Shown one piece after another: positions 1 through 40,743 of a DNA stretch of 40,743 nucleotides (position 1 is the first letter of the stretch; the number at the start of each line of letters is the position of its first letter). The translations under genes were made by a program, and so were the position numbers. Origin of the DNA: a virus; IMG/VR virus record IMGVR_UViG_3300027782_004568, positions 1-40,743 of that record; one strand, written 5' to 3'. Under the pieces are notes generated by a model that worked only from the letters and a program-made list of their open reading frames with translations, was not told the origin of the DNA and did not search any database.

Positions 1-1316
1 TCTTTTTGTTGAATAGTTTCCAAAGGCATGCTCACCATTTTGCTTAATTCAAATTCTACTTCAGTAGAATCTACTTTGCGATCATCTTTGGGTTTAATAT
101 TGAATCTACTACATGCCAAATCAATCAAATCAATGGCTTTGTCAGGTAATTTTTTATCTGTTTGATATTTGCAACTTAATTTCACTGCTGTTTCAATGGC
201 TTCGTCTGTGATTTCAGCTTTGTGATAATTTTCATAGTATTTTTTTAATCCTCTTAATATATCCATGGCCACTTCTTGACTGGGTTCATCCACAGTGATT
301 CTTTGGAATCTTCTCATAAGAGCACGATCTTTTTCAAAGTATTTTCTGTATTCTTCCCAAGTGGTACTGGCCACAACTTTTAGTGTGCCTTTGGTCAGCA
401 CTGGTTTTAATAAATTTGCTAAATCATTGGATCCTTTGTCTCCACCACCTGCTCCTGCTCCGCTGATATTGTGTGCTTCGTCTATGAACACAATGGTTTT
501 GCCTTTTTTCTTTAGTGCTTGCAACACCATTTTGAATCTTTCTTCAAAGTCTCCTCTGTATTTGCTACCAGCCAACATGGCACCAATGTCTAAATTATAC
601 ACCTGATACTCTTTTAAAAAGTCTGGAACCTTATTGGTCACAATGTTCAATGCCAATCCTTCTGCTATGGCAGTTTTACCCACTCCTGGATCACCCACTA
701 ATATCACATTGTTTTTCATTCTACGACCCAAAGCCAATGAAATTTGATCCAACTCAGCATGTCGACCTATCACGGGATCTATTTTTTCTTTTTTTGCTTC
801 CGAATTCAAATTTGTGGTGTATAGATTCAATGCTCTTTGAGTGGCAGAACTGTTTTCTTCTGCTTCATAATCAGTTTCTAATTCACTGTTTAAAAAATCA
901 GCAAATTTGTCTTTGCTGATGTTGCTTTTGGCAATGTAATAATAACTCCAGCTCTTCTTTTCACTCATCATGCTCAAAAACACATCAGTCAGTTCAATCT
1001 GTTGACGACCACTGAACAACACCTGTGTGAATGCTCTGTTGAGTACTCGCTCCACAGCCACAGTCTTTTTGGGTTTGAATTTTGCAGGCACTTCCAACAG
1101 TTCAATCTCTTTTAGATTGTCCTTAAGATATTTTTCAAGATTTTTTTTGATTGATTCAGCATCTGCGCCAAAGTCAGACAAATTTTTCACAAATTTATCA
1201 TAGCACAGCATGGAGAACAACAGATGTTCCACTGTGATGTATTCATGTTTGAGTTTGGCAGCATTTTCTACTGCTTTGTCAAATATGCGTTGTAGTTCGT
1301 CGCTGGGTTCTACCAT
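1..1316 (-). CDS. clpA: ClpA-type AAA+ unfoldase, 3' end cut by window
   Basis: Partial gene: about 438 N-terminal residues are visible and the frame runs off the left edge. ClpA is the hexameric ATPase that unfolds substrates and feeds them to ClpP; ClpS docks on its N-domain. Residues about 1-145 look like a Clp N-domain. The first AAA+ module has Walker A GDPGVGKT at 208-215, Walker B FIDEAH with D279-E280, and a pore-loop KYRGDFE. These positions nearly match E. coli ClpA (Walker A near 214), which favours ClpA over ClpB, as does the absence of a long middle coiled coil in what is visible. The second AAA+ module and any ClpP-binding loop lie outside. The start ATG is 1 nt after the deformylase stop, so translation is probably coupled. 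Last gene of the dnaJ-def-clpA operon. Confidence 0.93.
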
Positions 1317-5681: not shown

Positions 5682-6401
5682 ATGGGTTCAAAAAATGCTT
5701 TCAAAAAGCAATCCAAGCACAATAATGTACTCAAAATTAATCAATATCAAATAGAAAAACAAAAAGATGTCCAAATAATACCCCGCAATAAGAATCAAGA
5801 ATCCTACCTAATCAAACTGTTAGACCCCAGCAAAGACATTGTATTCGGTGTGGGACCTGCTGGCACAGGCAAAACATTGCTGGCAGTTCAGGTGGCCATC
5901 AAAATGTTCAAACAAAGACAGGTGGATCGCATCATCATCACCAGACCAGCAGTGAGTGTGGATGAAGACATTGGGTTTTTACCTGGCACACTGGAAGAAA
6001 AAATGGCACCATGGACACGCCCTATATTTGATGTGTTTCAAGAATACTTTCGCACAGAAGATCTTAGAAGTATGATGTATGAAGGCGTGATTGAAATAGC
6101 ACCTTTGGCATTCATGCGAGGCAGGAATTTTGTAAGAGCATTCATAGTGGCAGATGAGTGTCAAAATACCACACACAGTCAAATGAAGATGTTGCTCACA
6201 CGTTTGAGTCAAGGATCTAAAATGGCTGTGACAGGTGATTTAAATCAAGCAGACAGACAGCACGATAATGGATTGTTGGATTTTATAGAAAAATTAAATA
6301 AAACAGACAAAGCTCAACGCATTGATATAGTGAGTTTTCACAAAGGGGACATTGAACGTCATCCTGCTGTGAAAGAAGTGTTGGATATTTACGGAGATTA
6401 A
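5682..6401 (+). CDS. phoH: PhoH-family ATPase
   Basis: 239 aa from the ATG at 5682. A single P-loop domain of the PhoH family: Walker A GPAGTGKT at 58-65, a TRPAV motif near 88-92, and Walker B VADE with Asp158-Glu159. PhoH is nearly universal in marine T4-like phages. Bacterial relatives are linked to phosphate stress and RNA metabolism, but the phage role is not established. It is one of four plus-strand genes and has its own late-type promoter. Its stop overlaps the stop of the convergent PPIase gene: the four bases TTAA serve both strands. Confidence 0.95.
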   Translation: MGSKNAFKKQSKHNNVLKINQYQIEKQKDVQIIPRNKNQESYLIKLLDPSKDIVFGVGPAGTGKTLLAVQVAIKMFKQRQVDRIIITRPAVSVDEDIGFLPGTLEEKMAPWTRPIFDVFQEYFRTEDLRSMMYEGVIEIAPLAFMRGRNFVRAFIVADECQNTTHSQMKMLLTRLSQGSKMAVTGDLNQADRQHDNGLLDFIEKLNKTDKAQRIDIVSFHKGDIERHPAVKEVLDIYGD

Positions 6402-6709
6402 TTTTTTCGGATAATATGATATCCGTACACAGTGGGACAAACTCCACTGACTTCAGACACTTGTAATGTGTCAATAAAAGCAATAAAATCTTGATCCATT
6501 GTGCTGGGTTTAAATGTGCCTAAATTTCCTTGATTCTGTTTGCTGGGACAATCACTGTATTTCACAGCAGCATCTTCAAATGTGATCACACCTTGAGCAA
6601 TTTCATTTCTTATTCTTGCAGTTTCAAACATGGCTTCTTCCTGTGTTCTAGGACCTGTGTATCTCATTGCACCTTGATAACCGATTAATATATGACTGGC
6701 TCTGTACAT
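6398..6709 (-). CDS. Parvulin-type peptidyl-prolyl isomerase
   Basis: 103 aa, essentially one rotamase (PpiC/parvulin) domain. The family pattern is clear: RASHILI at the start, a helix with EEA, FEDAAVKYSDCPS in the middle, GNLGTF, and a C-terminal YGYHIIRK. It catalyses cis-trans isomerisation of peptidyl-prolyl bonds during folding. It has no signal peptide, so it acts in the cytoplasm. The ATG is 1 nt after the clamp-loader stop. It adds another folding factor to a genome already rich in chaperones. Confidence 0.93.
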   Translation of the reverse strand: MYRASHILIGYQGAMRYTGPRTQEEAMFETARIRNEIAQGVITFEDAAVKYSDCPSKQNQGNLGTFKPSTMDQDFIAFIDTLQVSEVSGVCPTVYGYHIIRKN

Positions 6710-7835: not shown

Positions 7836-8195
7836 TTAGAGTTGATTTTCTTTGTTCACGTAGGATTCTTCTGGTTTTTCTTTTGCCCAAATCATCACAC
7901 TTTTGGCTTCCACCATCTGTAGCACCTGTTCTGTGTGGTTGGTTTTGATTTTGACACCTCTGGTCCATCTGCCATGCTCCACCAAAATCCAATCACCCAC
8001 AGTGTATTCATCTGTGTTGTCTCGACCTTTGGCGTACACTTTGGCCCATCTAGGTTTGATACCATGCACCTTGCCATCATCTGAATTCAATATGATGCCA
8101 CCTTTGGTGGTTATAGAATCGAAACTCATGTCGCTCACAATCACACGATCCTTGATCGGAATCAATTCTCCCTCAAGAATCTTGTATGAGCTCAT
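7836..8195 (-). CDS. GroES-like co-chaperonin (gp31/Cpn10 type)
   Basis: 119 aa. It starts with the GroES-fold signature IPIKDRVIV, continues with a mobile-loop-like stretch ending in GGIIL (32-36, the hydrophobic residues that bind GroEL), and then has VGDWILVEHGRW. It caps the GroEL barrel; T4 gp31 replaces host GroES to fold the major capsid protein. A C-terminal acidic/basic tail extends beyond the core. No GroEL is in the window, so the host chaperonin is the presumed partner. It is the last gene of the unit starting at 8498; the clamp-loader promoter follows. Confidence 0.88.
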   Translation of the reverse strand: MSSYKILEGELIPIKDRVIVSDMSFDSITTKGGIILNSDDGKVHGIKPRWAKVYAKGRDNTDEYTVGDWILVEHGRWTRGVKIKTNHTEQVLQMVEAKSVMIWAKEKPEESYVNKENQL

Positions 8196-13181: not shown

Positions 13182-14993
13182 TTAACCAAATCTTCTGATC
13201 TTTGTTCTTGGGTAAGCAGCACCTGAAACAGGTCTTTTACCTTGTGTTTGATTTCTTTGAAAACTTTGAGCATTAAAAAATGCTCTTTTCGTAGTGGTTC
13301 CTGCCAGTTCTCCTAATCGAAATCCTCCATTGGGAGAGAAAAAATTATTTTGAATCCAATTTACATAACTTGTGAGTCCATCAAATGCTGCGATACTATA
13401 GTTGGTTGAGGCAGCTGGTCTGTTGTTCCATGTAGTACTATCAACATTCTCTACCACGGATTTAGCTTCTGAAAGTAATATAGTTTTTATTTGCGTATTC
13501 GTAGGCCATTGATTATTATAAAAGTAATATCTTTCCATCATACAGGCTGCTTTACCTACCACTGTGGGAGTAGCACAACTAGTGCCACTAAACATTCCCC
13601 AACTATTACCATCAGCGTAAGTACTCAGTGGATATGCAGTCCAGGTATTTTCTCCCAATCCTACAATATCTATTCCTGGACCTCTATTGGAATAAGGATC
13701 AAGTATTTGATATGTTTCTGAATTTTGTCCAGCAGCCACATCTATACTTTTATCTAAACCATGCGGACCATATGCTCTAAAAGGATAAGCTGTGGTTTGA
13801 TTTGTTGTTGTGCGTGTAACAATTGTGGTGCTAGAATAACTTATATCATATCTAGTAATTGTACCACTAGAAGAACAAAAAGTGCCGCTCCATCTTGGAT
13901 CAGAATCTTTCACATACACTCCTCCATTGTTTCCAGCTGCATTAAAATTGACTATGCCAGCGTCCCAAGCAGCTTCTAAGGCAACTTTAAGTGCAGTGTT
14001 TTGAAAAGGGTAAGGAAATACTGCACACCATTCAAAATTTAATGTGTTAGGATCTTGAATTCTAAAAGGTATTATATTTCTTGATGTGAACGGAGTTAAA
14101 TCCACTCCCCAACTTGCTCCTGGTCTATTAACTGTTCCACTGGGAGTAGTTATACTGTTGATATCATCTATTTTAATTCCATAAGATCTATCTAAAAGAT
14201 ACTGATATTCAGCTATCATGATGGTAGGATTAGGAACACCTGTGATAGGATTTACAGGTTTACTATTGTGCCAAGAAATTATAGCATTAATACATTCAAC
14301 TTCTCCATCTGCGAACGATAAGTATGCAACATAGAGATTTGATTTTTTAGCAAAACCACATATAGTTCCTGCAGCCGCACTGAGTACTCCCATTGCATGT
14401 GAACTAAAAACTCTATTGGAAGATATTTGATTATTGCTAGTATCTTCTAAATCTGTCCAATTTTTAGCAATTACTCTGGGAGTTCCAGGAGATTCTAAAT
14501 TTGAAAAATCTGGATGAGTTGCATGTACTCCTTGCAAAGTATTGTTAACAGGTCCTACTTCAAGACTGACTATATCCACATTTTTTCCAGTCCATCTATT
14601 AAAATAAGTTGCATTATTTAAAGATGAAACTGGATCATTACTGCCTAATTTTTGCGAAGAATATATTATGTCTGTATCAAGATAAAACTGCATGGGCATA
14701 TAATTTGAACCACTTAAAAGTGTGCTAGGAGCAACAGCAGTAATAGTTTTAGTAGTTGTAAAAAAATCAGGTAGTGAAGCAGAAACTGGCTTGAATAATC
14801 TAAAATCTATATTTTTTATTTGAGAATTATTAGAAAACTCTGTTATATAATCTTCATCGATATTGACAACAATTAAATTATCTATGGATTCCATAATGTT
14901 CCATAGTTCTACTTTATCATTATTAAATTGATCAATAAATTGTTGTTTATTTACATCATCATTTAAAATTACATCTATTATTTTTTTTGGCAT
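13182..14993 (-). CDS. Subtilase (S8) family protein in tail block
   Basis: 603 aa. Subtilisin-like core at about 135-500. The His motif is SSHAMGVLSAAAG (His199), the oxyanion-hole motif is AAGNNG (Asn355), and the Ser motif is GTSCATPTVVG (Ser472). The Asp motif aligns as GKNVDIVSLEVG, which puts Glu145 where the catalytic Asp is expected, so activity is uncertain. An N-terminal region (about 1-75) resembles a pro-domain-like fold, and a C-terminal extension of about 100 residues is Arg/Gly-rich. There is no signal peptide. Its place inside the fibre operon suggests a virion protein that processes fibres or attacks the host surface. The coding sequence is visibly more AT-rich than its neighbours, suggesting a separate origin. 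Confidence 0.88.
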   Translation of the reverse strand: MPKKIIDVILNDDVNKQQFIDQFNNDKVELWNIMESIDNLIVVNIDEDYITEFSNNSQIKNIDFRLFKPVSASLPDFFTTTKTITAVAPSTLLSGSNYMPMQFYLDTDIIYSSQKLGSNDPVSSLNNATYFNRWTGKNVDIVSLEVGPVNNTLQGVHATHPDFSNLESPGTPRVIAKNWTDLEDTSNNQISSNRVFSSHAMGVLSAAAGTICGFAKKSNLYVAYLSFADGEVECINAIISWHNSKPVNPITGVPNPTIMIAEYQYLLDRSYGIKIDDINSITTPSGTVNRPGASWGVDLTPFTSRNIIPFRIQDPNTLNFEWCAVFPYPFQNTALKVALEAAWDAGIVNFNAAGNNGGVYVKDSDPRWSGTFCSSSGTITRYDISYSSTTIVTRTTTNQTTAYPFRAYGPHGLDKSIDVAAGQNSETYQILDPYSNRGPGIDIVGLGENTWTAYPLSTYADGNSWGMFSGTSCATPTVVGKAACMMERYYFYNNQWPTNTQIKTILLSEAKSVVENVDSTTWNNRPAASTNYSIAAFDGLTSYVNWIQNNFFSPNGGFRLGELAGTTTKRAFFNAQSFQRNQTQGKRPVSGAAYPRTKIRRFG

Positions 14994-25322: not shown

Positions 25323-25670
25323 TTATGCTGTCTCCTTTTCAAAACTGATGCTCTCACCACAACCACATGCGCTCTTGGCATTGGGATTGCGAATGTCAAA
25401 ATGTGATCCAAACACTTCAGTCACATAATCCAACTCAGTGCCTAGAATATACATCACACTGGCAGCATCTATGGTGAACTTGGTTCCATTGCCAAAGTTT
25501 AACAGCTCATCTGCAGGTGCAATTTCTGATTGATCAGCAAATCCCCAATCGTAGGAATAACCTGCACACCCACCACCTTTGATGCTGAGTCTCACAGCAT
25601 ATTTGTTGTTGTGATGACACAACTCTTTGATCTTTTCGATTGCTCTTTCAGTGACAGTGATTACAGCCAT
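25323..25670 (-). CDS. A-type iron-sulfur carrier (IscA/ErpA/HesB family)
   Basis: 115 aa, the typical family length. It holds and transfers Fe-S clusters or iron. The three invariant cysteines are present: Cys35 in GGGCAG, and Cys102 and Cys104 in SACGCGES. The body (VRLSIKGGGCAGYSYD, then FTIDAASVMYILGTELDY) follows the family pattern. Related genes occur in other marine phages. It lies directly ahead of the giant tail-fibre gene (3-nt gap) behind a late promoter with a CGGAAA ribosome binding site, so it is expressed late with virion proteins, unlike a typical auxiliary metabolic gene. No Fe-S client is evident in the window. Confidence 0.95.
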   Translation of the reverse strand: MAVITVTERAIEKIKELCHHNNKYAVRLSIKGGGCAGYSYDWGFADQSEIAPADELLNFGNGTKFTIDAASVMYILGTELDYVTEVFGSHFDIRNPNAKSACGCGESISFEKETA

Positions 25671-35719: not shown

Positions 35720-36310
35720 TTAGTCTTTTTTAGATAGAATTTTATCTATCAATCCATACTCAAAGGATTCTTGGGCGTTCATGAATTTATCTCGTTCCAT
35801 GTCAGCACTCAATTGCTCAAAGGTTTTGCCTTTGGAATTGTGATTAACATAGATCTGAGTGAGTTCCTTTTTAAGTTTAAGGATCTCTTGAGCATGAATT
35901 TGTATGTCTGTGGCCTGACCTTGAGTACCACCTGATGGTTGATGTATCATGTGTCTGGCATGTTTCAACATGTATCTGTGACCTGCTTCACCTGATTGTG
36001 ACAATAGACTGCCCATAGAGCAAGCCTGACCAATCACATAGGTGTACACTGGAGATTTGATATATTGCATGGTATCGTAGATTGCCATGCCTGCTGTGAC
36101 CAATCCTCCTGGTGAGTTGATATAAAAATGTATGGGTTTGGTATTTTCGCTTTCTAAAAATAGCAGTTGACTCACAATAAGACTGGAAGACACTGGAGAT
36201 ACTTCTGTATCCAACATCACCAATCTATCTTTGAGCAGTCGGCTGTAAATGTCGTAGGAACGTTCGCCTCTGGCTTCTTGTTCAATCACTATGGGAACCA
36301 ATGCTGGCAT
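35720..36310 (-). CDS. clpP: ClpP serine protease
   Basis: 196 aa, normal length, without an obvious propeptide. ClpP forms the two-ring chamber that degrades proteins fed by ClpA or ClpX. The catalytic triad is visible: Ser98 in GQACSMGS, His123 in MIHQPSGG, Asp174 in MERDKFM. SPGG at 66-69 forms the oxyanion region. Phage clpP genes are known in marine myoviruses. Here clpA and clpS are in the same window, so a complete phage set is possible, or mixed complexes with host ClpX/ClpA. It starts immediately after the stop of a 70-aa gene. Confidence 0.96.
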
Positions 36311-38504: not shown

Positions 38505-38540
38505 AAAAAAAGCCACAGTTTATGCGACTTTTTGCTGTGG
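38505..38540 (-). terminator. Terminator after the bilin reductase gene
   Basis: On the minus strand CCACAG and CTGTGG form a stem around a 16-nt loop and are followed by CTTTTTTT. An alternative stem, AAAAAG with CTTTTT, is also possible. It begins 1 nt after the stop of the gene at 38542 and separates it from the next promoter. Confidence 0.75.
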
Positions 38541-38541
38541 A

Positions 38542-39237
38542 TTATTTTATTTTTGGAAATAGTGCGTCTGTGCAAAATAATTCTACGTCTGCTTCTGCCA
38601 AACCTAAACTTTTCATCACTCTAGGTGTGTGTGGATTCTGTTGCTGATTATGACAATAATAGTTTTGTGCCTCAATGGTATCTGCTTCCTTGGCAGTGTG
38701 AGCATATTGTCCTATGCTGTCAAAATACACTTGTAGGTTGTTCACTGCAAGATTCACAATGGTGTTGGCTTCTTCGTCTGTTTGCACATTGCCTGCGGCA
38801 ATCATGCTGCCTGAAAATATATTCAGTGCCCACTCTGGTAGTTTTCTTCTTTTAGAAGGAATGAACTCTGCCACTGCTTGGTGATACCATTCTATCAGTG
38901 GATGTTGATCACCACCTGAGCTGCGTGAAAAGTCATGAAATGCGCCGGTCATTTTGTGTTCTCCGGCAATCACATCGAATCCATAGATAGGACCATTGTT
39001 GTGCAAATGTGGAAATACACACACATGCATCATCCAAAGACCTTTGCTTTGTCTAGCATCCACCACGTCTATGTGACAACGACGACAGTGTTCAGTTTCC
39101 CACACTCTATTGATCCAACCATTTTCGGGTTGATTGAATCTGCTCATGCCGGGTTCTTGAATCTCTTTGCCGCGTGAATTGAATTCTGTGATGATATTAT
39201 TCTGACATGCAATCAAGGTATCCCAAATGAAACTCAT
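38542..39237 (-). CDS. pcyX: Ferredoxin-dependent bilin reductase, PcyX-like
   Basis: 231 aa. FDBRs reduce biliverdin to coloured bilins with electrons from ferredoxin. The family core is visible: His71 in MMHVCVFP (PcyA His88 region), Asp88 in YGFDVIAG (PcyA Asp105), LPEWALNIFS near 133-142, and a C-terminal YCHNQQQN, TPRVMKSLG, LFP pattern. Where PcyA has the catalytic Glu76, this protein has Asp57 (HIDVV). Closer to PcyA than to PebS by motif. The viral enzyme PcyX, described from uncultured oceanic phages with a heme oxygenase, is PcyA-like yet makes phycoerythrobilin, and this gene fits that description. The exact product cannot be read from the sequence. Last gene of the hsp20-clpS-ho unit. 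Confidence 0.85.
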   Translation of the reverse strand: MSFIWDTLIACQNNIITEFNSRGKEIQEPGMSRFNQPENGWINRVWETEHCRRCHIDVVDARQSKGLWMMHVCVFPHLHNNGPIYGFDVIAGEHKMTGAFHDFSRSSGGDQHPLIEWYHQAVAEFIPSKRRKLPEWALNIFSGSMIAAGNVQTDEEANTIVNLAVNNLQVYFDSIGQYAHTAKEADTIEAQNYYCHNQQQNPHTPRVMKSLGLAEADVELFCTDALFPKIK

Positions 39238-39238
39238 G

Positions 39239-39421
39239 TTAATATTCTTCTCGGATGCCTTTTAACTCTCGTACTCTGTCTTTTAATGTGTCTATGGTGG
39301 TGTAGATATGACCTGTGTCGTGTTCTTGAATCTGTGTTTTAAAATAACTTATCTCATCTTCCAATACTTTTATTTTGATCAAGTTGCCTGGAAAATCTTT
39401 AAATTTTTTCTTCTTAGTCAT
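39239..39421 (-). CDS. Small charged protein between ho and bilin reductase
   Basis: 60 aa from the ATG at 39421, which overlaps the heme oxygenase stop by 8 nt. It starts with MTKKKKFKDFPG and continues with a helical, coiled-coil-like region rich in Glu, Asp and Lys. No motif. Its position inside the heme-to-bilin gene pair suggests a linked role, but nothing in the sequence shows one. A longer start at 39475 lies inside ho and is less likely. Confidence 0.65.
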   Translation of the reverse strand: MTKKKKFKDFPGNLIKIKVLEDEISYFKTQIQEHDTGHIYTTIDTLKDRVRELKGIREEY

Positions 39422-39947
39422 TGAGCATGTCCTGAAACAACCCAGTGGCGAAATCAAAACATTTTTTAGCTTCATCTGCCATGGAATCGTTTATTCTTGA
39501 TCGGATAATCTCTTTGGCTTGATCTTTGTCTGCAAAATCAAACATGGTGCCAGCACCTGGAACTTTTTTACGTATCATTTGTCCACCTGACAGATCTCCC
39601 ATGTGTCTCACATACACGTGAGCCATCAGTGCATCCTTGTTGTCTTTGATTGTGAGTAAATGATCCAAATATGTCTTGGTTGCGTTTTTGGGTTCAGGCA
39701 ATGTTTGATCCTTGGGCCAAAGTTCTTTGAAATCTGCTAATATTTTAGGAGCTCTTCTCACATCTTCCATTCCATTGAATATGCCGTGCGACATGGCCAT
39801 CATTTCCAACAGGTCGTATGCCATGTGTTGATTGAATAAAAATTCTGCGTACAATTTGGGATCAATGCTGCCTGAAAACATAACCTTCACAAACTTTTGA
39901 CGTTCTGCGTTCTTATGATGTTCCCAAGTGAGATCTTTGAGGCTCAT
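39414..39947 (-). CDS. ho1: Heme oxygenase
   Basis: 177 aa, shorter than cyanobacterial HO1 (about 240) as in other phage versions. Opens heme to biliverdin IX-alpha, CO and iron using ferredoxin. Proximal heme ligand His11 lies in TWEHHKNAE; the distal helix motif HMGDLSGGQMI is at about 115-125 with Gly117, Asp118, Gly121 and Gly122. It starts 2 nt after the clpS stop and is followed, after one small gene, by the bilin reductase that would use its product. It could also serve iron release, but the linked reductase argues for bilin production. Confidence 0.94.
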   Translation of the reverse strand: MSLKDLTWEHHKNAERQKFVKVMFSGSIDPKLYAEFLFNQHMAYDLLEMMAMSHGIFNGMEDVRRAPKILADFKELWPKDQTLPEPKNATKTYLDHLLTIKDNKDALMAHVYVRHMGDLSGGQMIRKKVPGAGTMFDFADKDQAKEIIRSRINDSMADEAKKCFDFATGLFQDMLND

Positions 39948-39949
39948 TG

Positions 39950-40252
39950 TTATTCCATTCTTACTTGTAGAGGAAAGCCTCTGCTTCTGGCATCTTCTAT
40001 GGCTTCTTTGGTTTTCTGTTCAGCTATTTCATAACTGTAGGAACCCACCACACTGCTGCCTTCTGTGTGAATTTTAAGTGTGATTTCTTTGGCACTGTCT
40101 TGAGTGTGTTTGAATATTTTTATCAATAGTTCTACCACATAGTCTACTGGAGTAACATCATCATTCAACATGATCACTTTGACCATTTCTGGTTCTAATA
40201 TTATCTGTTCTACTTTTTCGTCTAGGACTATATCGGTTTTGGTTTTGCTCAT
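39950..40252 (-). CDS. clpS: ClpS N-degron adaptor
   Basis: 100 aa. ClpS binds proteins with N-terminal Leu, Phe, Trp or Tyr and delivers them to ClpA-ClpP. The substrate-pocket residues are conserved: Asn30-Asp31-Asp32 in VIMLNDDVTP (E. coli Asn34-Asp35-Asp36) and His62 in LKIHTEGSS (E. coli His66). The N-terminal 20 residues form the usual flexible arm. The rest (VVGSYSYEIAEQK) follows the ClpA-binding face. It is transcribed in the same direction as hsp20 and ho. With clpA and clpP in this genome, the phage would have a complete ClpA-ClpP-ClpS system. Confidence 0.96.
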   Translation of the reverse strand: MSKTKTDIVLDEKVEQIILEPEMVKVIMLNDDVTPVDYVVELLIKIFKHTQDSAKEITLKIHTEGSSVVGSYSYEIAEQKTKEAIEDARSRGFPLQVRME

Positions 40253-40299: not shown

Positions 40300-40743
40300 T
40301 TATAGTATTTCTATTACTCTGGCTTTTTTGTTTTCTGGAACGATTCTTTCCATAGAAACAGTTAGTAAACCATCTTTTAATTCAGCACCTTTGATTTCTA
40401 CATCATCGGCCACTGTGAATGATTTACTGAAGTATCTTTTGGAAATACCTTTGTGGATAATGTTATCATCCGCATCCTGTTTCTTAGACTCTGTTCGGTC
40501 TTTGGATTTGATGGTCATTACCCCTTCCTCAAATTCCACAGAAACATCGTCTCTGTTGAATCCTGCCAAAGCCACTTCAACGTTGTACGTATTAACGCCA
40601 GTTTTTACAATATTGTAAGGTGGATAGTTAACAGTAGGTACGTTAAAGAAATCGTCATTGACCATTCTTTCGAAGTGATCAAAAACGTTATCAAAGCCCA
40701 CTGTAACGGGTCTTAGTTGATTAAAGATAGTTAGTGCTCTATT
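40300..40743 (-). CDS. Hsp20 small heat-shock protein (IbpA-like), 5' end outside
   Basis: 147 residues are visible and the frame stays open to the right edge. The upstream part (RALTIFNQLRPVTVGFDNVF) matches the normal Hsp20 N-terminus, so the start lies outside the window; an internal GTG at 40701 is not needed. The alpha-crystallin domain runs from YPPYNIVKTG (with VEVALAGF) to GAELKDGLLTV, followed by PENKKARVIEI, where the I-x-I/V motif is found. It holds unfolded proteins for refolding by DnaK or ClpB. Phage Hsp20 is common in marine T4-like genomes. It may share a transcript with clpS and ho through the hairpin at 40268. Confidence 0.93.
   Translation of the reverse strand, partial: NRALTIFNQLRPVTVGFDNVFDHFERMVNDDFFNVPTVNYPPYNIVKTGVNTYNVEVALAGFNRDDVSVEFEEGVMTIKSKDRTESKKQDADDNIIHKGISKRYFSKSFTVADDVEIKGAELKDGLLTVSMERIVPENKKARVIEIL

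Follow-up and report, generated by a model that had tools for sequence, protein, structure and literature searches.

What use bilins are to phages whose host bacteria have no phycobilisomes is the question raised by a 40,743-nt stretch of viral DNA (the window; IMG/VR record IMGVR_UViG_3300027782_004568) that encodes a heme oxygenase (HO) and a ferredoxin-dependent bilin reductase (FDBR). The hemO-pcyX cassette of marine phages has been published, the pelagiphage Mosig being an isolate with the cassette, and its use was described as enigmatic (PMC11480375). So far viral PcyX has been treated as a pelagiphage gene without a known use, and it yields phycoerythrobilin (PEB) in the cyanobacterium Synechococcus (PMC13197396). 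Since both the cassette and the activity of PcyX have been published, the enzymes themselves are not new. Very large phages had also been linked to HO and bilin reductase before: the Crystal Bog phage CB_2 (527 kb, predicted Methylocystis host; PMC7674155), a large phage like those of the window's lineage, has an HO, a bilin reductase, and a 5-ALA synthase, and these vHemO, vPcyA, and vAlaS enzymes are active (PMC11480375). The CB_2 reductase, however, is set apart by its published description in that it does not have the PcyX-specific Asp and makes phycocyanobilin (PMC11480375). What is putatively new, as judged from the genes and their order, is the setting of the pair: in a jumbo-phage lineage they belong to a near-fixed operon that also has ClpS and HSP20.

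The bilin reductase is PcyX

The reductase scored 60.5 bits against the PF05996 profile (cut-off 31) and its top match in the PDB was the solved PcyX_EBK42635 (5owg; E = 4e-84, 285 bits), while the best PcyA in the PDB gave 59 bits (E = 5e-15). Against the NCBIfam PcyA profile it scored 82.9 bits, the cut-off being 206. The sequence-only reading had placed His71 and Asp88 at the positions of PcyA His88 and Asp105, with Asp57 where PcyA has Glu76, and the alignment confirms this; all three residues are invariant in 92 of 92 distinct relatives. In a tree of 55 rows, in which those of PebA, PebB, and Synechocystis PcyA are partial sequences, the window reductase falls inside a 48-row PcyX clade (support 100/99) together with EBK42635 and Mosig, and PcyA, PebS, PebA, and PebB all lie outside it. 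In a fold comparison the AlphaFold2 (AF2) model of the reductase (pLDDT 92.6) came out nearest to 5owg (TM 0.96 on target), and it also matches the PcyA fold. The match to viral PcyX that had been noticed from the sequence is therefore borne out by the 5owg match and by the two checks proposed with it, phylogeny and structure prediction, and since clustering with PebS or with cyanophage PcyA, which had been named as grounds for abandoning it, is absent, the identification stands.

The reductase combines the family profile and fold of the FDBRs with a place in the PcyX clade, an Asp at the Glu76 site, and a cassette with HO. It is not a PcyA, having Asp57 and not Glu and lying outside the PcyA clade, and it is not a PebS, since it does not group with cyanophage PebS in the tree and matches its fold only distantly. 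By sequence, tree, and predicted structure it is a clear PcyX, and by analogy with the characterized PcyX EBK42635 its product would be PEB. The window enzyme resembles EBK42635 in its clade, its fold, and its Asp at the PcyA Glu76 position but is well diverged from it: EBK42635 pairs with the SAR11 phage Mosig, whose PcyX is 55% identical to that of the window, whereas the window enzyme falls into another and broader group of PcyX sequences, found in jumbo-phage contigs.

The heme oxygenase and the organization of the operon

The HO scored 70.6 bits against PF01126 (cut-off 23) and has the proximal His11 and, at residues 115-123, the distal-helix motif HMGDLSGGQ. His11 is conserved in 88 of 91 cases and the glycine-rich GDLSGG of the distal helix is also conserved. 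Although this HO is short, its AF2 model (pLDDT 94.9) spans the all-helical heme-oxygenase fold and matches HmuO and HO-1/HO-2. Profile, proximal His, glycine-rich distal helix, and fold together place it in the HO-1/HmuO family. Both ho and pcyX are under purifying selection, with dN/dS of about 0.06-0.15 against close relatives, and since E-values go down to 4e-84 as well, the two genes are not chance reading frames but real, functional-looking members of known enzyme families.

As the sequence-only reading had it, the two genes are co-directional on the minus strand with a 60-aa gene between them (Table 1). They make up the 3' part of an operon with all its genes in one direction, HSP20-ClpS-HO-(60-aa gene)-PcyX, in which hsp20 lies upstream of clpS, 2 nt separate the end of clpS from ho, there is an 8-nt overlap between the ho stop and the 60-aa gene, and 1 nt lies between the end of the 60-aa gene and the pcyX start. 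This tight spacing suggests a single translationally coupled operon, probably read as one transcript. Homologues of the 60-aa gene occur near 35 of the 101 distinct pcyX loci, its dN/dS is 0.02-0.14, and a Pfam search with the copy of one relative (L007) gave no match. The unit had also been described as closed by a terminator. A hairpin with a T run is indeed present 3' of pcyX, but the terminator scan did not call it and its RNA fold has only a modest advantage over shuffles (z = -1.8; 12 of 200 shuffles were equally good).

Table 1. Features of the operon and related genes in the window
Feature	Position	Strand	Basis
ho, heme oxygenase, 177 aa, complete	39414-39947	-	PF01126
pcyX, ferredoxin-dependent bilin reductase, 231 aa	38542-39237	-	PF05996, 5owg, tree, AF2
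pcyX catalytic codons	Asp57 39067-39069, His71 39025-39027, Asp88 38974-38976	-	
60-aa gene between ho and pcyX, without known family	39239-39421	-	
clpS, Clp protease adaptor	39950-40252	-	PF02617, 98.8 bits
hsp20, small heat-shock protein, incomplete at window end	40300-40743	-	PF00011, 60.2 bits; PHROG 432
Hairpin CCACAG...CTGTGG then T run, 3' of pcyX, possible weak terminator	~38505-38540	-	
IscA/HesB-like Fe-S carrier protein (context)	25323-25670	-	PF01521, 63.9 bits
ClpP-type protease (context)	35720-36310	-	PF00574, 245 bits
ClpA-type unfoldase, cut by window end (context)	3-1316	-	Clp_N, AAA, AAA_lid_9

Conservation of the operon among relatives

At least 590 IMG/VR stretches encode a relative of the window PcyX. 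The best-scoring 80 loci were taken per search, some contigs being common to more than one search, and distant relatives are under-sampled. There were 101 distinct pcyX loci, and the 87 with at least 2.6 kb upstream were used for counting neighbours. Among these best-scoring loci with room, HO is present in 85 of 87, and ClpS, with HO, lies ahead of PcyX in 84. The exceptions are Mosig, without ClpS, and the loci L178 and L193, without HO and ClpS nearby. In the reverse search, which counted HO loci followed by 1.5 kb or more of sequence, ClpS lies before HO and a bilin reductase after it in all 76 of the best-scoring loci. The order HSP20-ClpS-HO-PcyX is almost fixed in the jumbo-phage lineage of the window.

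Some variation was seen. In L178 and L193 pcyX lies a few genes from an apparent DNA polymerase gene, which is a second setting of pcyX. A tryptophan-halogenase-like gene stands between HO and PcyX in L053-L055, L059-L061, L075, L076, and L081 (that of L059 matches PF04820 with 301 bits), and a nitrilase-like gene is found there in a few loci. Genes like those for CsgG and curlin, of the curli system, were seen by eye 3' of pcyX in L056, L062, and L107. Curli-system genes have been reported for pelagimyophages.

The phage lineage and its host

Most of the window is collinear with each of three contigs, of 148 kb (44 reciprocal best hits), 335 kb (36), and 357 kb (38). The last two are independent assemblies with 233 orthologues in common, and each has a terminase, a major capsid protein (MCP), and the HO-PcyX operon together. 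The window itself does not have the MCP gene, and MCP and terminase (TerL) were compared in its collinear relatives. The MCP of the 357-kb contig shares 67-70% identity with those of Sinorhizobium phage Phosso, Vibrio phage 2.275.O, and Pseudomonas phage PA5oct, and its TerL is 55% identical to those of PA5oct-like phages and 51% to that of Agrobacterium phage Atu_ph07. HO and PcyX were searched for in these four jumbo phages, whose capsid or terminase is akin to that of the window's lineage, and were not found, and a search by DNA found no nearest cultured phage for the window. Jumbo phages with ClpP, ClpS, SprT-like, and Hsp20 genes are known (PMC7824862).

A pelagiphage origin was suggested for the marine contigs of PMC11480375, and Mosig (EXVC030M; MT647606) is the first isolate match of the window and the single cultured phage with HO and PcyX that the analysis turned up. 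In this 141-kb pelagimyophage PcyX also comes directly after HO (HO is 45% and PcyX 55% identical to those of the window), and the pair has genes for 2OG-Fe oxygenases and ferrochelatase as well as neck genes on its flanks. Unlike the window, Mosig has no ClpS adjoining HO and no 60-aa gene. The MCP of the window's lineage is only 35% identical to that of Mosig, and the structural genes of the relatives are not nearest to those of HTVC008M or Mosig. A pelagimyophage origin of the window was therefore rejected on capsid, terminase, and collinearity. On the sequences compared here, the lineage is one of very large phages, distinct from the pelagiphage group to which the HO-PcyX pair had been assigned, and the suggested pelagiphage origin does not hold for it. 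In the 55-row tree the long branch with Mosig and EBK42635 is nested among the contig sequences. This gives a hint that pcyX passed from the jumbo-phage lineage to pelagiphages, although long branches make it uncertain.

The earlier idea that the phage infects alphaproteobacteria is not established, as the hosts of the cultured relatives by capsid and terminase are Sinorhizobium and Agrobacterium among the alphaproteobacteria and Pseudomonas and Vibrio among the gammaproteobacteria. Two other routes to the host were tried. The phage-borne DnaK of one relative (L059) was uninformative, its best identity among 398 genomes being 73%. The phage operon also occurs in metagenome-assembled genomes (MAGs; L106-L109) labelled Halobacteroidaceae, Pirellulales, Neomarinimicrobiota, and Rickettsiales, one contig being 335 kb, and since four unrelated bins have the same phage operon these host labels were rejected; they apparently represent mis-binned phage contigs. 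The window also encodes a subtilase-domain protein of 603 aa (13182-14993) that shares 44% identity with a tail fibre protein from Synechococcus phage S-CAM1.

Tetrapyrrole, iron, and redox genes

The Shemin route starts with 5-ALA synthase. A gene for this enzyme (545-577 bits) was found in six of the seven searched contigs of more than 230 kb and was absent from the 345-kb contig; it was also found in G417, which has a PcyX with 92% identity to that of the window. A phage copy of 5-ALA synthase is a functional enzyme (PMC11480375). In five relatives a 7Fe-type ferredoxin gene is beside the clamp loader gene or within about 0.3 kb of it; the 7Fe ferredoxin gene of G013 is at 240343-240690. 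In the window the clamp loader is adjoined directly by a peptidyl-prolyl isomerase (PPIase), with no ferredoxin at the corresponding site, and neither a 5-ALA synthase nor a ferredoxin was recognized in the window, which is a fragment. A plant-type ferredoxin as the phage's own redox partner was rejected because none occurs on the phage contigs, the single match (G009) being on another contig of a bacterial MAG.

IscU was found in four of the eight relatives searched (177-186 bits), namely G013 (L217:13659-14039), G015, G002, and G009:C57, and with the IscA-like gene of the window it is part of an Fe-S assembly system. Genes resembling those for 2OG-Fe(II) oxygenases are common in the long relatives. 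In G013 several successive genes at about 167-190 kb (L214, L215) have, as seen by eye, cysteine motifs like those of radical-SAM proteins. The absence of photosystem genes nearby, remarked on from the sequence, extends further, as no photosystem reaction-centre gene (PF00124) was found in the window or in ten relatives. The phytochrome PHY domain and phycobiliproteins were likewise not found in ten relatives, and no bilin-binding protein was recognized.

Proposed role of the operon

The purpose of the phage bilins had been called a puzzle. This still stands, but HO and PcyX are no isolated oddity since they lie in a conserved operon and 5-ALA synthase is encoded elsewhere. We propose, with about an even chance of being right, that the phage boosts a route from newly made heme to PEB and that the reduced bilin, and not only iron, is the wanted product. 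HO would open heme to biliverdin IX-alpha, releasing Fe2+ and CO, and PcyX, by analogy, would reduce biliverdin with four electrons from ferredoxin to PEB, while the phage 5-ALA synthase would push new tetrapyrrole through the host heme pathway into PEB. It is the presence of 5-ALA synthase in the same genomes that argues for the bilin itself as the wanted product. The sequences show the enzyme families, catalytic residues, operon order, lineage, and 5-ALA synthase of the relatives; we infer the PEB product (from EBK42635), the single transcript, the redox partner, and the purpose. The coupling of HO and reductase (76 of 76 and 85 of 87 loci with room) and the purifying selection on both count for it. 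Against it count the failure to recognize a bilin-binding protein, the location of 5-ALA synthase and ferredoxin outside the operon, and the 2OG-Fe(II) oxygenases, IscU, and IscA, which fit an iron purpose equally well.

The main rival is that HO frees iron from host heme, aided by Clp proteolysis under the control of the phage through ClpS, while PcyX mainly clears biliverdin, which keeps HO turning over, and PEB is a by-product. An iron role was suggested earlier (PMC11480375), and the company of HO in the operon (ClpS and HSP20), the ClpA, ClpP, and IscA of the window, the IscU of half of the relatives searched, and the many 2OG-Fe(II) oxygenase-like genes fit it. However, the 5-ALA synthase of most long relatives would make heme and consume iron, and a pure sink for biliverdin need not hold the PcyX-specific Asp57 invariant in 92 sequences. 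We regard heme-iron recycling as a serious but somewhat improbable explanation; the present data do not separate it from the PEB route. That the operon removes heme so as to disable or re-tune the host, through respiration or heme-sensing regulators, with ClpS redirecting proteolysis to the same end and the bilin as waste, would account for the fixed linkage to this proteolysis adaptor but is improbable, as a 5-ALA synthase in the same genomes counteracts heme depletion. That PEB helps a cyanobacterial host to harvest light, like the products of cyanophage PebS or PcyA, is very improbable in spite of the S-CAM1-like tail gene and of the HO and bilin reductases of cyanophages, because genes for photosystems, phycobiliproteins, or plant-type ferredoxin were not found on the phage contigs of the relatives, the closest capsids and terminases are those of phages of Proteobacteria, and PcyX is no cyanophage type.

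With the PEB route as the preferred explanation, a wider and more tentative reading, which as a whole we think doubtful, is that a large unrecognized lineage of jumbo phages, with a fixed HSP20-ClpS-HO-PcyX operon, 5-ALA synthase, Fe-S assembly proteins, and its own ferredoxin, runs a dedicated heme-to-PEB route in a non-photosynthetic host, that this route is tied to Clp proteolysis and its bilin is not for light harvesting, and that PcyX resides chiefly in these jumbo phages, from which it reached pelagiphages. The setting of HO and PcyX is more orderly than could be seen from the window, and the purpose of the pair has become testable: a near-constant operon with ClpS and HSP20, together with 5-ALA synthase, makes a concrete system with specific predictions on heme flux, the bilin in infected cells, the redox partner, and the dependence on ClpS. 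These predictions could settle the question with which we began.

Other genes of the window

With ClpA, ClpP, and ClpS the window holds a complete Clp protease set. Its ClpP is 65% identical to the copy on the 357-kb contig, and the orthologue of its ClpA-type unfoldase in a relative is full length (748 aa). Further genes encode a peptide deformylase (1318-1812), DnaJ (1799-2635), PhoH (5682-6401), the PPIase next to the clamp loader (6398-6709), and a GroES-like protein (7836-8195).
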